Notes under the pieces: generated by a model
Database searches by the model: none
Told to the model about the DNA's origin: nothing
Seen by the model: only the letters and a program-made list of their open reading frames with translations
In this document: positions 420-33,942 of the stretch, in pieces
How positions within the stretch are numbered: position 1 is the stretch's first letter
Layout of the letters: each line of letters begins with the position of its first letter
Program-made: the position numbers and the translations under genes
Source: Spirochaeta thermophila DSM 6578
GTDB taxonomy: Bacteria > Spirochaetota > Spirochaetia > Winmispirales > Winmispiraceae
NCBI RefSeq assembly: GCF_000184345.1
Contig: NC_017583.1
Span: forward strand, 2,294,001 to 2,358,000
Direction: 5' to 3'
DNA: 64,000 bases

Positions 420-1982
420 ATGAGAAAGATCCGGAACGCACGTTCCATCCTGTTCATCCCCGATCCTCCGGCCGATGCCGTGCCCCTTGGGGAACTGGAG
501 GAGTTCCTGGGGAGTCTCCCGGGGAAGGCCACGGCGACATGGAACATTCCCGTGTGTCCGTTTCTCGAAGATGAGCGGTGGAGGCGGTTCCTCGAACGGA
601 GGATAGCTGTGGGCGACGAACTCGTGAGCATGGGCTACGCAGGGGTGCCTCTCCACCTCCTCTCCCCGCAGGAACAGGAAGACGAGCTCGCCTGGGCCCT
701 CCACAACCCCTGGTGGAGCGGGACGTACGACCTCTGGCACTTCACCCCCCGCGCCTATCACCACCCCGCCGGCACCCTCTCCCCCCTCCCCCCCACCTTC
801 CCCCAAACGCCCCTCACCACCCTCCTCTCCCCCTCCCGCCCCTTCCACGGCCGGCTCGCCTCGCCCCAGGGCGCGCTCCCCCTCGTCCACCTCCCCTTCC
901 TCCTCCTCTCATCCTCCCCGCTCCGCACGCTCACCCGCGCCCTCCTCTCCCCCGACCCCCTCGTCCTCCTCATGACCCCCGGCCCCGACTTCGCCGCGCA
1001 GGCCGACCTCCTCCTCACCGTCCTCCTCGACCTCGACCGCAAGGGCCACACCTTCAGCTTCGAACCGCTCCCCGATCCCCTCCCCCTACCCCCCACCCAG
1101 CACCTCACCCCCCTCCTCGTGCCCCTGCCTTCGGTTCCCCACGTTGACCGCCTCCGCGCCATGGACGAGGACTCGGAGGAACACACCCGCCTCCTCCTGC
1201 AGACCCTCTCCGCCTACCACCCCACCCCCGCCGCTCCCCTCCCCCCCGCCGAGCGGACCCTCGGCGCCCACATGGAGGGCAGGGCCATCCTGTCGGACGA
1301 AGGGATACACGTGGAGTTCGAAGGCGGCCTCCCGGTACTCGTGGCCTCAGGTCCCGGCCCCGCCCATCGCCTCCCCGCCCCGCAGGTGGAACTCGCAGGC
1401 AAAAAGACCCGCATCACCGTACAGAGCGCCTTCTCGCTCGAGGGCGAGCACGTACGAGGGCTCCGGACCCTGCTGTCCGCAGCCGGCACCACGCCCCTCG
1501 CCACCGCGGATTTCCTCCTGGTGGAAGGCTTCCCCCACCTCATCCTCGACCTCGCCCTCTTTCCCGAAGCCCTGGACGCCCCCTGGATGAGCCGGCTCCA
1601 CCCCCTCTCCCTCCCCCTCCCCTCCTCCCCCTCGCCGCCGAAACTCACCCTCTTCCAGCACACCCTGAAGAGCCCCGCCACCCTCGAGACCCCCTCCCTC
1701 CTCTGTGCACCCACCGGCCTCCTCGTCCAGACCCCCGACTCCCACCTCCTCGTCCAGCCGCTCTCACCCTGGGCCCCCGTCCCCTGTCCCCTCCTCCTCC
1801 AGGCCTCGAACCGCGGCCACACCCTCTCCCTCACCCCCCTCCCCATCCCCGGCCCGGCATCACCCCGCACCCTTCCCACCCCCCTCCGCACCACCCTCCT
1901 CGTCTCCCCCACTCTCACCTCCCCCCTCCCCGCCGGAGACCTCCCGCCCCAGGTCCTCGCCGCCCTCTTCCCCTCTGACTAG
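420..1982 (+). CDS. Unidentified protein, 520 aa, Pro/Leu-rich
   Basis: I do not recognise the family. The ATG at 420 follows AAGGTAGGC; the reading frame is open further upstream to 288, but that part looks non-coding. The first 130 residues look like a folded domain (SILFIPDPP, ATWNIPVCPFLED, GYAGVPLHLLSPQEQEDELAW), vaguely like a polysaccharide-deacetylase-type barrel, but no catalytic motif is clear. The rest is dominated by proline and leucine because the coding strand is extremely C-rich. No signal peptide or obvious membrane segment is seen. It is divergent from groEL, and its stop overlaps the stop region of birA on the other strand (tail-to-tail). Confidence 0.6.
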   Translation: MRKIRNARSILFIPDPPADAVPLGELEEFLGSLPGKATATWNIPVCPFLEDERWRRFLERRIAVGDELVSMGYAGVPLHLLSPQEQEDELAWALHNPWWSGTYDLWHFTPRAYHHPAGTLSPLPPTFPQTPLTTLLSPSRPFHGRLASPQGALPLVHLPFLLLSSSPLRTLTRALLSPDPLVLLMTPGPDFAAQADLLLTVLLDLDRKGHTFSFEPLPDPLPLPPTQHLTPLLVPLPSVPHVDRLRAMDEDSEEHTRLLLQTLSAYHPTPAAPLPPAERTLGAHMEGRAILSDEGIHVEFEGGLPVLVASGPGPAHRLPAPQVELAGKKTRITVQSAFSLEGEHVRGLRTLLSAAGTTPLATADFLLVEGFPHLILDLALFPEALDAPWMSRLHPLSLPLPSSPSPPKLTLFQHTLKSPATLETPSLLCAPTGLLVQTPDSHLLVQPLSPWAPVPCPLLLQASNRGHTLSLTPLPIPGPASPRTLPTPLRTTLLVSPTLTSPLPAGDLPPQVLAALFPSD

Positions 1983-27333: not shown

Positions 27334-28248
27334 ATGGAAACGATCGTACGGGTGGAACACTGCCACAAGACCTATGGAACCTTCCGGGCCCTCACCGATC
27401 TCTCCTTCTCCGCCGGACGGGGCGAGTGCGTGGCACTCCTCGGCCCCAATGGGGCGGGGAAGACCACCATGATCAAGATCCTCTACGGCAAGGCACGCCG
27501 TGATCCGCACCCCGAGACCCGGGTGGAAGTCTTCGGGCTCGACCCGGAGGAACACGAACTCACCATCAAACAGCGTACCGGCGTGGTGCAGCAGGAGAAT
27601 AACCTCGACGACGAACTCAACGTGGTGCAGAACCTCAAGATCTTCGCACGTTTTTACAGGATGAAACCCTCCCGCGCCAGAGCGCGCATCGAAGAGCTCC
27701 TGGAGTTCATGGAGCTTTCGGAGAAGAGGGATCAGCCGGTGAAGGCCCTCTCCGGCGGGATGAAACGGAGACTCGTCATCGCCCGGGCCCTCCTCAATCA
27801 GCCCGAGCTTCTCTTCCTCGATGAACCCACCACGGGGCTCGATCCGCAGGTGCGCCAACTCATCTGGGACAGGATTCGGGCCCTCACCAGACAGGGAGTG
27901 ACGGTCCTCCTCACCACCCACTACATGGAGGAGGCCTACCACATCGCCGACAGGATCATCATCATGGACCACGGCAAGTCGCTCCTCGAAGGCAACCCGA
28001 GGGAACTCGTGGAGAAGCACATAGAACCCCAGGTGGTGGAGGTCCTCATCCCCTCCTACACCCCGCCGTCGGGCGATTCCCTCAGAGTGGAACATTCCGA
28101 GGAGCGGACCCTCGTCTACGCCCCCTCGAGAGAGGAACTCGAAACCTTTACCGCCGAACTCCCGGCCGGGAGCTATTTCATCCGCCCCTCCACACTCGAG
28201 GACCTGTTTCTCAAGATCACCGGAAGGAGGCTGAAAGATGGTCAATGA
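27334..28248 (+). CDS. ABC-2 type exporter, ATP-binding subunit
   Basis: A 304-residue ATPase of the DrrA/NodI group. Walker A is GPNGAGKTTMIK, the Q-loop VVQQENNLDDELNV, the signature LSGGMKRRLVIARAL, Walker B LLFLDEPTTGLDP, and the switch His LLTTHYMEEA. It energises export by the membrane subunit encoded next (11-base overlap). The substrate is unknown; relatives export drugs, lipids or polysaccharides. No good Shine-Dalgarno is present; TATCTT lies seven bases before the ATG. Confidence 0.92.
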   Translation: METIVRVEHCHKTYGTFRALTDLSFSAGRGECVALLGPNGAGKTTMIKILYGKARRDPHPETRVEVFGLDPEEHELTIKQRTGVVQQENNLDDELNVVQNLKIFARFYRMKPSRARARIEELLEFMELSEKRDQPVKALSGGMKRRLVIARALLNQPELLFLDEPTTGLDPQVRQLIWDRIRALTRQGVTVLLTTHYMEEAYHIADRIIIMDHGKSLLEGNPRELVEKHIEPQVVEVLIPSYTPPSGDSLRVEHSEERTLVYAPSREELETFTAELPAGSYFIRPSTLEDLFLKITGRRLKDGQ

Positions 28249-29030: not shown

Positions 29031-29059
29031 TTGACGAATCCGCAGGATCGGGGTACAAT
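29031..29059 (+). promoter_or_regulatory. Strong promoter of the candidate small RNA
   Basis: TTGACG (29031-29036), exactly 17 bases, TACAAT (29054-29059). It is one of the best sigma-70 sites in the window and has no gene directly after it. The start is expected near 29066. Confidence 0.8.
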
Positions 29060-29065
29060 AGTCTA

Positions 29066-29161
29066 TTGAAAAAAGAAAAGCTTCCGATAGCGAGGAGGTG
29101 ACACTATCGGAAGCCAGAAAAAAAGGAGGCTGAAGGAGAGCGCGACGCGCTCTCCTTTTTA
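29066..29161 (+). ncRNA. Candidate small RNA, about 95 nt, with GGA-rich hairpins
   Basis: The unit runs from a near-consensus promoter to a strong terminator with no credible gene. Hairpin 1 is GCTTCCGATAG (29080-29090) paired with CTATCGGAAGC (29104-29114), a perfect 11-base stem around a 13-base loop that displays GAGGAGGTGA. A single-stranded linker follows with AAAAGGAGGC. The terminator stem also starts AAGGAGAG. Repeated GGA motifs, one in a loop, resemble CsrA-sequestering RNAs; the loop also mimics a ribosome-binding site. An 11-codon frame starting at a GTG in the loop exists but has no spacing for its own ribosome site. Function is inference. Confidence 0.65.
29133..29160 (+). terminator. 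Terminator of the candidate small RNA
   Basis: AAGGAGAGCGC (29133-29143), loop GAC, GCGCTCTCCTT (29147-29157), continuing into a T-run. Confidence 0.9.
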
Positions 29162-29266
29162 CGTTATTATAAACATCGGAAGGAGGAGAAAGTTACACAA
29201 GGCCCTTTCCGGCACTCTCTTTTTTGAGTAGAGTGTAAGGAGAGACCACAGATCAGGGAGGGAGCC

Positions 29267-29971
29267 ATGCTCGCACGACCACAGGCACTCACCGGACCTC
29301 AGACCGGTGCGCTTCAAAGGATCCTCACCAATATCTACCTCTGGATGACGGGAGGCCTCGCCCTCACCGGCGTGGTGTCCCTGGGAGTGGCAAGTTCACC
29401 GACACTCCTCAGGACGTTCTTCAGCAATCCCCTCATCTTCTTCCTCCTCATAGGAGGAGAGCTCGCCCTCGTCTTCTACCTCTCTCTCCGGATACAGAAG
29501 ATGAGCCCCTTCGCGGCCACGGTGGCGTTCGCATCCTATTCGGCGCTCAACGGGGTGACCCTCGCCCCCCTCTTCCTCGTCTACACGGGAACGAGCATCG
29601 CCCAGGTGTTCTTCATCACCGCAGCCACCTTCGCGGGGATGAGCGCCTACGGCTATCTCACGAAGCGCGATCTCTCCAGGGTGGGGAGCATCGTGGGGAT
29701 GGCTCTGTGGGGGCTCATCATCGCCTCTCTCGTGAATATCTTCCTGCGAAGCGAAGGCTTCTCACTCATCATCTCCTACGTGGGTGTGCTCATCTTCGTA
29801 GGACTCACGGCGTACGATACCCAGATCCTCAAACAGTGGGCCACCCAGATCGATCCCTCCGACGAGAGCGTCTACGTGAGGTTCTCCATCATGGGCGCGC
29901 TCAAACTCTACCTGGACTTCATCAATCTGTTCCTGTTCCTCCTCAGGATCATGGGGAGCCGGAGGGATTAG
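29267..29971 (+). CDS. BAX-inhibitor-1 family membrane protein
   Basis: A 234-residue protein with seven predicted membrane helices, matching the BI-1/YbhL/YccA family (the YNP/YSALNGVTLAP helix, the TKRDLSRVG loop, and the TAYDTQILKQW segment with its conserved Asp). Family members are pH-sensitive calcium leak channels or modulators of membrane proteases such as FtsH; the role here is unknown. GGGAGGGAG is the ribosome site. It is followed by a strong bidirectional terminator. Confidence 0.92.
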   Translation: MLARPQALTGPQTGALQRILTNIYLWMTGGLALTGVVSLGVASSPTLLRTFFSNPLIFFLLIGGELALVFYLSLRIQKMSPFAATVAFASYSALNGVTLAPLFLVYTGTSIAQVFFITAATFAGMSAYGYLTKRDLSRVGSIVGMALWGLIIASLVNIFLRSEGFSLIISYVGVLIFVGLTAYDTQILKQWATQIDPSDESVYVRFSIMGALKLYLDFINLFLFLLRIMGSRRD

Positions 29972-32597: not shown

Positions 32598-33942
32598 GGG
32601 ATTGTCAAGGGGGAGTGTTGAAATTGAGCTGGAGCTGATAAGGGGTGCGTCTCCCCACCTCTTGTATCACCTGCATGCCCACCACGTAGAGGCCTACCAC
32701 CTCATCTGCATGGGCATGGCTCATATACCCAGGATACCTCCGTAGAAAGCTTCTCATGTGCCGAAACATGTTCTCCGCAAGGTTGCTCGTCCTCACCTTC
32801 TCCTTCCACTCATAGGGTAACTCCAGATAGGAGAAAAGCCGGTCCTTCCGCCACAGGAGGGAGGCCGTCATCCGGGGAGCCTTCGCCGCCCACTTCTTCA
32901 CGAATGCCTCCAACGCACGTGCTGCGTCCTCCTTCCCTCCTGCCTCAAAGAGCTTCCAGTACTCCGCTCGAAAAGCTCGCCTCTCCTTCTGGAGGTCTGC
33001 GTTCTTCCCCTTCCGTTCCCCCATGTCCTGCAGGAGCTTCTGCTCAAGCGTACCCTGCAGGTGCCAGAGGCATACCTGCTTCTTCGCCTCAGGATACACC
33101 GTCTCCACGGCCTGCCGGATCCCCTCAGCCTCATCGGCCACCACCAGCTCCACCTCATGAAGCCCTCGCTCATAGAGCCTGGTAAGGAGTCGCTCGTAGC
33201 TCGCCTGGTCCTCCTGCTCCGCAACGACCCAGTCGAGGAGCTCATGAGATCCGTCCTCCTTCACCCCCACGGCACTCAGGACAACCAGCTTCTTCTGACC
33301 CCTCCCACGCCTCTTTGCCCACACTCCATCCAGCACAAGGGCCTTCACTCCTCTAAGGGACCTCCTCCGCCACTGCTCCTTCTCCTCACGAAGACGCTTT
33401 ATGAGCCGCAGGAGTGTCTGCGGGTGAGCCTCGCCTATCCCCAGCTCCCGTAACAGGATGGCCCACGTCCGCGCGCTCATCCCTCCCACATACCCGAGAA
33501 GGAGCTGCTCGGCGAGGGCCACGAGCCTCTGCTCGTAGGTCACCAGCTTTACCTCCTTCCCCCCGCCGGTGCGAATGCGGGGCACGCGTACCTCCTCGAT
33601 CGGCCCCCAGGGGGTCTGCACGCTCTTCCACTTTCTGTAGCCGTACCGGTAGTACTGCCCTTTCTCAGGCTCCCCTCGTGCATATCGTGGTCGTCCTACT
33701 GCCTCCTCTCTCAGCGTCTCAAGGAGGTGTTCCAGGTACGTCTTGTAGGTGTGGCGCACCTCCTCCCGTAGCTGGTCTTCCACTTGTTTCATCAGATCAG
33801 AGAGGGTATACTGTGTCTCAATCAGTGTGCGTGTGTTACCACGCTTCATGGGGTATCTCCTCCTTGAAAAAAGGATTAGTGTGGTGGGAGATACCCCTTA
33901 TCTTTTTTCCCCGCCTTTTTCAACACTCGATGTTACAGTCCC
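32598..33942 (-). mobile_element. IS256-family insertion sequence, copy 2
   Basis: 1345 bases, the same length as copy 1, flanked by a perfect nine-base duplication. Ends are GGGATTGT (left) and GGGACTGT (right, reverse strand). It sits between the divergent def and tRNA-Cys promoters. Confidence 0.92.
32605..33849 (-). CDS. IS256-family transposase, copy 2
   Basis: 414 residues, intact, nearly identical to the copy at 23175. Catalytic segments ALVLDGVWAKRRGRG, VVADEAEGIRQAV and TSNLAENMFRHMR are all present. Nucleotide differences cluster around 33070-33200 and 33340-33360 and change only a few residues, so the copies have diverged somewhat or been partly exchanged. Confidence 0.95.
   Translation of the reverse strand: MKRGNTRTLIETQYTLSDLMKQVEDQLREEVRHTYKTYLEHLLETLREEAVGRPRYARGEPEKGQYYRYGYRKWKSVQTPWGPIEEVRVPRIRTGGGKEVKLVTYEQRLVALAEQLLLGYVGGMSARTWAILLRELGIGEAHPQTLLRLIKRLREEKEQWRRRSLRGVKALVLDGVWAKRRGRGQKKLVVLSAVGVKEDGSHELLDWVVAEQEDQASYERLLTRLYERGLHEVELVVADEAEGIRQAVETVYPEAKKQVCLWHLQGTLEQKLLQDMGERKGKNADLQKERRAFRAEYWKLFEAGGKEDAARALEAFVKKWAAKAPRMTASLLWRKDRLFSYLELPYEWKEKVRTSNLAENMFRHMRSFLRRYPGYMSHAHADEVVGLYVVGMQVIQEVGRRTPYQLQLNFNTPP

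Follow-up and report, generated by a model that had tools for sequence, protein, structure and literature searches.

The DNA analysed here (the window) is a stretch of 64,000 nucleotides from Spirochaeta thermophila DSM 6578, whose genome is a single contig of 2.56 Mb. In the window's family, a small RNA gene lies between an ABC-2 transporter permease gene (in the window species) and a gene of the Bax1-I (BI-1) family. Two near-identical insertion-sequence copies flank the region, at about 24437 and 33867; insertion-sequence genes lie near 23.7-24.4 kb and at 32605-33849 on the minus strand, with a transposase like MKRGNTRTLIETQYTLSD... The features of the locus are these:

28224-28235, plus strand: candidate target site AAGGAGGCTGAA in the Shine-Dalgarno (SD) region of the ABC-2 permease gene (ATG at 28238), a 12-nt perfect complement of the small RNA's linker.
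29031-29059, plus strand: sigma70-like promoter TTGACG-17-TACAAT, scoring 10/12 in the window, in a same-genus genome and in the sister genus.
29069-29164, minus strand: small RNA of about 94 nt, its start predicted near 29163 from the promoter and its end set by the U-tract; models R2 and R3 match the minus strand only.
29069-29079, minus strand: U-tract UUUUCUUUUUU of the minus-strand terminator, by direct reading.
29080-29114, minus strand: terminator hairpin of 11 bp with loop UGUCACCUCCUCG and the second anti-SD copy (29099-29092), supported by covariation in 61 sequences.
29115-29132, minus strand: linker, unpaired in the fold, with the first anti-SD copy, CCUCC (29129-29125).
29133-29157, minus strand: 5' hairpin of the small RNA, a 12-bp inverted repeat that is also the plus-strand terminator; the sister genus keeps the hairpin with a different loop.
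29166-29197, minus strand: ECF-type promoter, TGTAAC (29197-29192), a 16-nt spacer and TGTTTATAAT (29175-29166), a 9/9 match.
29267-29971, plus strand: gene for a Bax1-I (BI-1) family membrane protein (PF01027, E 2.9e-62), with an orthologue in locus L004 and synteny kept in the sister genus.

An earlier note on this DNA had described a candidate small RNA on the plus strand at 29031-29161, and the elements it named are all present where it placed them. The promoter (29031-29059, 10/12) is followed by a perfect 11-bp stem (29080-29090 with 29104-29114), whose 13-nt loop CGAGGAGGTGACA (29091-29103) contains the motif GAGGAGGTGA to which the note had drawn attention. Next come the linker AAGGAGG, with its last base at 29129, and a terminator with a 12-bp stem (29133-29144 with 29146-29157) and a run of T residues. 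No fitting open reading frame occupies the interval, which bears out the note's view that it holds no convincing gene. The interval folds at -37.9 kcal/mol, against -21.6 kcal/mol in shuffles (z = -5.4), and sigma70-like sites of at least 10/12 are rare, at 7 per 128 kb of strand in the 64-kb window. Both the plus-strand promoter and the terminator are kept in the same-genus genome and in the sister genus, where the promoter reads TTGACC-17-TACAAT. At the other small-RNA family loci tested this promoter is absent; it is present only in the window's own family.

The earlier reading had missed that the same palindromic features make up a complete minus-strand transcription unit with an ECF-type promoter at 29197-29172. 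The claim of a small RNA gene at the locus therefore stands, but the strand does not: the conserved RNA is the minus strand. Both palindromes read equally well on either strand. Only one stem position differs in the sister genus; it still pairs, as G-U, when read from the minus strand, whereas the plus strand has an A.C mismatch there. Among 30 distinct sequences compared earlier, the G-U pairs agree with the minus strand by 14:1. Compensatory stem changes among relatives, which the note had named as its own test, are found: in an alignment of 61 distinct sequences, 93% of cells are paired and double changes number 150, against 44 in shuffles, and the covariation score is 0.637, compared with 0.235 when shuffled and at most 0.21 for slid structures. 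These alignments had been fitted to the covariance model, and we therefore built an independent model, R3, from 36 sequences, leaving out the window's family, G016 and G299. R3 matches the window once, on the minus strand at 29131-29070 (45.8 bits, E 3e-10), and gives zero matches on the plus strand.

The minus-strand RNA is C/U-rich and runs from the 5' hairpin through the CCUCC linker to an intrinsic terminator with a CACCUCCU loop, whose hairpin is followed directly by the U-tract. Because the RNA is read from this strand, its exposed motif is CACCUCCU and not GAGGAGGUGA; the SD mimic on the plus strand that the earlier note had proposed is unsupported outside three genomes. We take CACCUCCU, or ACCUCCU, to be the 3'-end, anti-SD sequence of 16S rRNA, and the 16S 3' end of the window genome is presumed, from general knowledge, to be of the CACCUCCUUU type. 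The CCUCCU loop motif occurs in all 33 of the 33 sequences of set A7, ACCUCCUUUU stands at the linker position in most family members, and a U-tract lies 3' of the hairpin in every member inspected.

Searches with R2, a covariance model of the minus strand, place this RNA across the spirochaetes. At E<=0.01 there are matches in 114 of 395 Spirochaetia genomes (54 at E<=1e-4); among 31 non-spirochaete control genomes there are three matches only, at E 0.14-0.2, and none at E<=0.01. A phylum sample yielded matches in 44 of 393 genomes at E<=0.01, 43 of these in class Spirochaetia. Eleven of 17 named spirochaete genomes have a match, and Alkalispirochaeta alkalica and Marispirochaeta associata carry two copies each. 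The recurring layout is a ACCUCCUUUU linker, a GC-rich stem enclosing a ACCUCCUUU loop, and a U-tract. One locus (L201, 1449-1561, plus strand) has a tandem pair of anti-SD hairpins, and the family may include multi-hairpin versions. Outside the window's family, matches of the plus-strand model, R1, were set aside: they were terminators, stretches resembling an SD, or the minus-strand RNA read in reverse. No family in Rfam 15 matches the small RNA and none reaches its own cut-off at the RNA in any scanned locus, one of the scans having been run at E<=0.5, with below-threshold matches attributable to chance or mere analogy; the open-licence papers searched contain no description of it.

The R1 search also revealed that each of the three genomes in the window's family carries a paralogue; that of the window genome is located outside the window, at G000:C1:1374357-1374417 on the minus strand (locus L111). 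The window genome holds no second near-identical DNA copy, and the paralogue is detectable by covariance model only. A consensus sigma70 promoter (TTGACA-17 followed by TATAGT or TATATT) lies on its minus-equivalent strand, and its C/U-rich transcript of about 64 nt, near-invariant between two genera, consists of a 5' leader with CCUCC followed by a terminator hairpin with loop UUUUCCUCCUUU. A distant match in G016 (L094) has the same layout. The paralogue adjoins a gene for an RRM RNA-binding protein.

The promoter of the small RNA in the window recurs at other family loci. A full 9/9 match to TGTAAC-N16-KGTT lies upstream of the RNA at 25 of 60 loci, against 0.04 in Markov shuffles, and a match of at least 8/9 at 34 of 60, against 1.4, although this test is post hoc since the motif was recognised by comparing the loci. 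On the opposite side of the 60 loci there are no full matches, and no spacing other than 16 yields comparable numbers apart from 13, a sub-register of GTTGTT. The motif is present in the window (29197-29172), in the same-genus relative and in the sister genus. We take TGTAAC to be an ECF-type -35 element, as in B. subtilis SigX. Treponema-like loci (group f8) have, by eye, a sigma70-like promoter instead, so ECF control of the small RNA is not universal.

Five sites in the window genome fit the strict form TGTAACY-N15-KGTT, a count not enriched over the three of a reversed-pattern control. One is the promoter of the small RNA in the window. Another, at G000:C1:2091831-2091856 on the minus strand and found after the motif had been recognised, lies directly upstream of an ECF sigma factor gene (981-1493, minus strand, of locus L241; PF04542, E 4.7e-14; PF08281, E 6.5e-16). 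That gene is followed by genes for a one-helix membrane protein, a putative anti-sigma factor, and a secreted protein; it is autoregulated-looking and lies downstream of a tRNA-synthetase-like gene. Two further sites precede genes for an outer-membrane-like protein and a small membrane protein. The fifth, inside a gene, is the only one not kept in the same-genus relative. A pattern with a stricter -35, GTAACTTT-N16-TTATA, showed no enrichment against its reversed form in 41 genomes and gave way to TGTAAC-N16-KGTT. The stricter pattern does stand upstream of related small envelope beta-barrel-like (outer-membrane protein) genes in three other spirochaetes (L119, L120 and L124) and may represent this ECF promoter or one related to it; its -10 element differs, and we did not count it as support for the small-RNA promoter.

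The genomic neighbours of the RNA vary. A phosphofructokinase (PFK) gene adjoins it in 16 of 48 loci, and in 11 of 48 a phosphoglucose isomerase (PGI)-type gene, checked by Pfam in 2 of the 11, converges on it from the other side (for example L166, L170, L183, L185, L193 and L195). The placement between PFK and convergent PGI genes is a hint of a link to glycolysis. In the window, the interval 29174-29255 upstream of the BI-1 gene contains a hairpin-like sequence with TTACAC...TGTAA elements that are also found in the sister genus (L004); it is a possible leader element.

Computation thus establishes a conserved RNA gene with its strand, structure and promoter class, and a common promoter before an ECF sigma gene. 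We consider it likely that the RNA is an ECF-sigma-controlled, Hfq-independent anti-SD sRNA that blocks translation initiation, and that it represents a spirochaete-wide family. An ECF sigma factor would recognise TGTAAC-N16-KGTT and transcribe the C/U-rich RNA of about 94 nt. The linker and terminator loop, which copy the 16S rRNA 3' end (ACCUCCU), would stay unpaired and could pair with the SD sequences of target mRNAs, blocking translation initiation; the RNA would then form the repressive, non-coding part of an envelope-stress regulon. We infer its transcription, the SD pairing in the cell, the repression and the mainly-envelope nature of its targets. A perfect complement of at least 6 nt in the -25 to -1 region occurs in 38 of 55 window genes, compared with 8 of 55 in a control stretch, and SD complementarity alone gives little target specificity. 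The best site in the window is that of the ABC-2 permease gene, although at least one shuffle matches or betters its computed duplex gain. Hfq (PF17209) has no match in G000, G001, G002 and G016, where controls were detected. The potential for SD pairing and the failure to find Hfq in these four genomes together lead us to prefer a mechanism, under ECF control, in which translation starts are blocked without Hfq.

Alternative readings of the locus centre on its plus strand. The earlier note had suggested an RNA whose GGA motifs sequester CsrA in the manner of CsrB/RsmZ. The genome does encode CsrA (PF02599, E 3.2e-26), the plus-strand loop presents GGA, and the TTGAC(G/C)-17-TACAAT promoter, the GAGGAGGT loop and the AAGGAGG linker are kept in three genomes. 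Beyond those three the idea finds no support: the conservation seen across the class belongs to the other strand, the G-U pairs of the family hairpins become A.C mismatches on the plus strand, and the other family loci have no plus-strand promoter. CsrB/RsmZ RNAs carry several loop GGA motifs on the transcribed strand, whereas here the conserved strand shows CCUCC, and GGA appears on its complement only, in a single loop. Since any strong SD sequence contains GGA, the motif is also unspecific for CsrA, and we regard a decoy as very improbable. Given the CsrA gene and the promoter kept within the family, there may still be an additional plus-strand RNA. Such a transcript, specific to the window's family, would start from TTGACG/TACAAT, stop at 29133-29157 and act, alongside the anti-SD RNA proposed above, as an antisense or sponge RNA that titrates the minus-strand RNA. 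Its promoter and terminator are kept, the U-tract of the sister genus being the stronger one, and it is by position fully complementary to the minus-strand RNA and partly to the paralogue. The computed pairing gain with the paralogue RNA is -18.8 kcal/mol against a shuffle mean of -11.4, but shuffles go as far as -19.3; the corresponding values for the sister genus are a gain of -14.4, a shuffle mean of -9.8 and a best shuffle of -19.5. Pairing with the paralogue therefore does not decide the matter. The arrangement is found in three genomes only, and we view the sponge as possible but doubtful. Slightly less probable still is that, in the window's family, the locus encodes a fully overlapping pair of small RNAs: the anti-SD RNA of the minus strand, driven by an ECF factor, and opposite it an SD-like sponge under a housekeeping promoter on the plus strand, the two sharing their palindromes as each other's terminators. 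If true, the overlapping pair would be a self-contained, tunable switch for translation initiation.

The plus-strand promoter could instead drive the BI-1 gene, with the hairpins forming an attenuator within its leader. In both genera BI-1 follows downstream, and no sigma70 site of at least 9/12 occurs between 29161 and 29267. An R1 search of BI-1 loci, though, shows that the small-RNA family does not precede BI-1 elsewhere, and in the sister genus TTTTCA-16-TATAAA could serve as a separate promoter for BI-1. The two hairpins are, moreover, not mutually exclusive, which leaves no alternative antiterminator pairing, and this arrangement seems unlikely to us. Two palindromic hairpins with U-tracts on opposite sides could also mean simply that a bidirectional terminator separates the transcription units and that the locus has no small RNA at all. 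Both adjoining genes lie on the plus strand, so a minus-strand terminator would be unneeded; conservation extends to the loop, the linker and the upstream promoter at fixed spacing, and the invariant CCUCCU loop would be unaccounted for. We find this reading scarcely credible. The anti-SD sRNA on the minus strand remains our preferred interpretation.

Similar modes of action have been described in other phyla. NfeR1/alpha-r14 RNAs expose anti-SD motifs in unpaired loops and repress at translation start sites, in the case of NfeR1 independently of Hfq; they are defined by three hairpins, each with CCUCCUCCC in unpaired regions (PMC10746234). In Fusobacterium, the sigma-E-driven FoxI and FoxJ repress the porin FomA through C-stretch seeds (PMC11005410). 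Like NfeR1/alpha-r14 (RF02344) and cuckoo/CcsR, the spirochaete RNA combines anti-SD sequences in unpaired regions with variable stems and an intrinsic terminator, and by analogy would share their repression at translation starts. Instead of three CCUCCUCCC hairpins, it has two hairpins, with one CACCUCCUC loop and one CCUCC linker copy of ACCUCCU. The RF02344 model scores 28.1 bits on the minus strand of the window (E 0.0018), below its gathering cut-off of 58.8. The alphaproteobacterial alpha-r14/cuckoo RNAs also belong to a different phylum, and the spirochaete RNA is set apart by its ECF promoter; cuckoo/CcsR are linked to DUF1127 genes, while the spirochaete RNA is found beside ABC-2 permease and BI-1 genes in the window, where no DUF1127 neighbour was seen, and beside PFK and PGI genes elsewhere. 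An ECF-type promoter common to the sigma gene and the sRNA, as for MicA/RybB of Enterobacteria and FoxI/FoxJ, is found here, with TGTAAC-N16-TGTT before both. We know of no sequence relation of the small RNA to MicA/RybB or FoxI/FoxJ. Unlike these, it is present across a bacterial class, and whereas MicA/RybB use Hfq, no Hfq was found in the window genome. The spirochaete RNA most likely acts in the manner of NfeR1/alpha-r14 and FoxI/FoxJ, and it falls in none of the families tested.

A review tallied 6 distinct annotated sRNAs in Spirochaetes, against 345 in Proteobacteria (PMC9029176). The RNA would add another independent case in which bacteria reuse the tail sequence of 16S rRNA as a regulatory seed, apparently without Hfq. 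An RNA conserved in much of the class, with a recognisable ECF promoter and a candidate sigma factor, would open envelope-stress control in spirochaetes to study.
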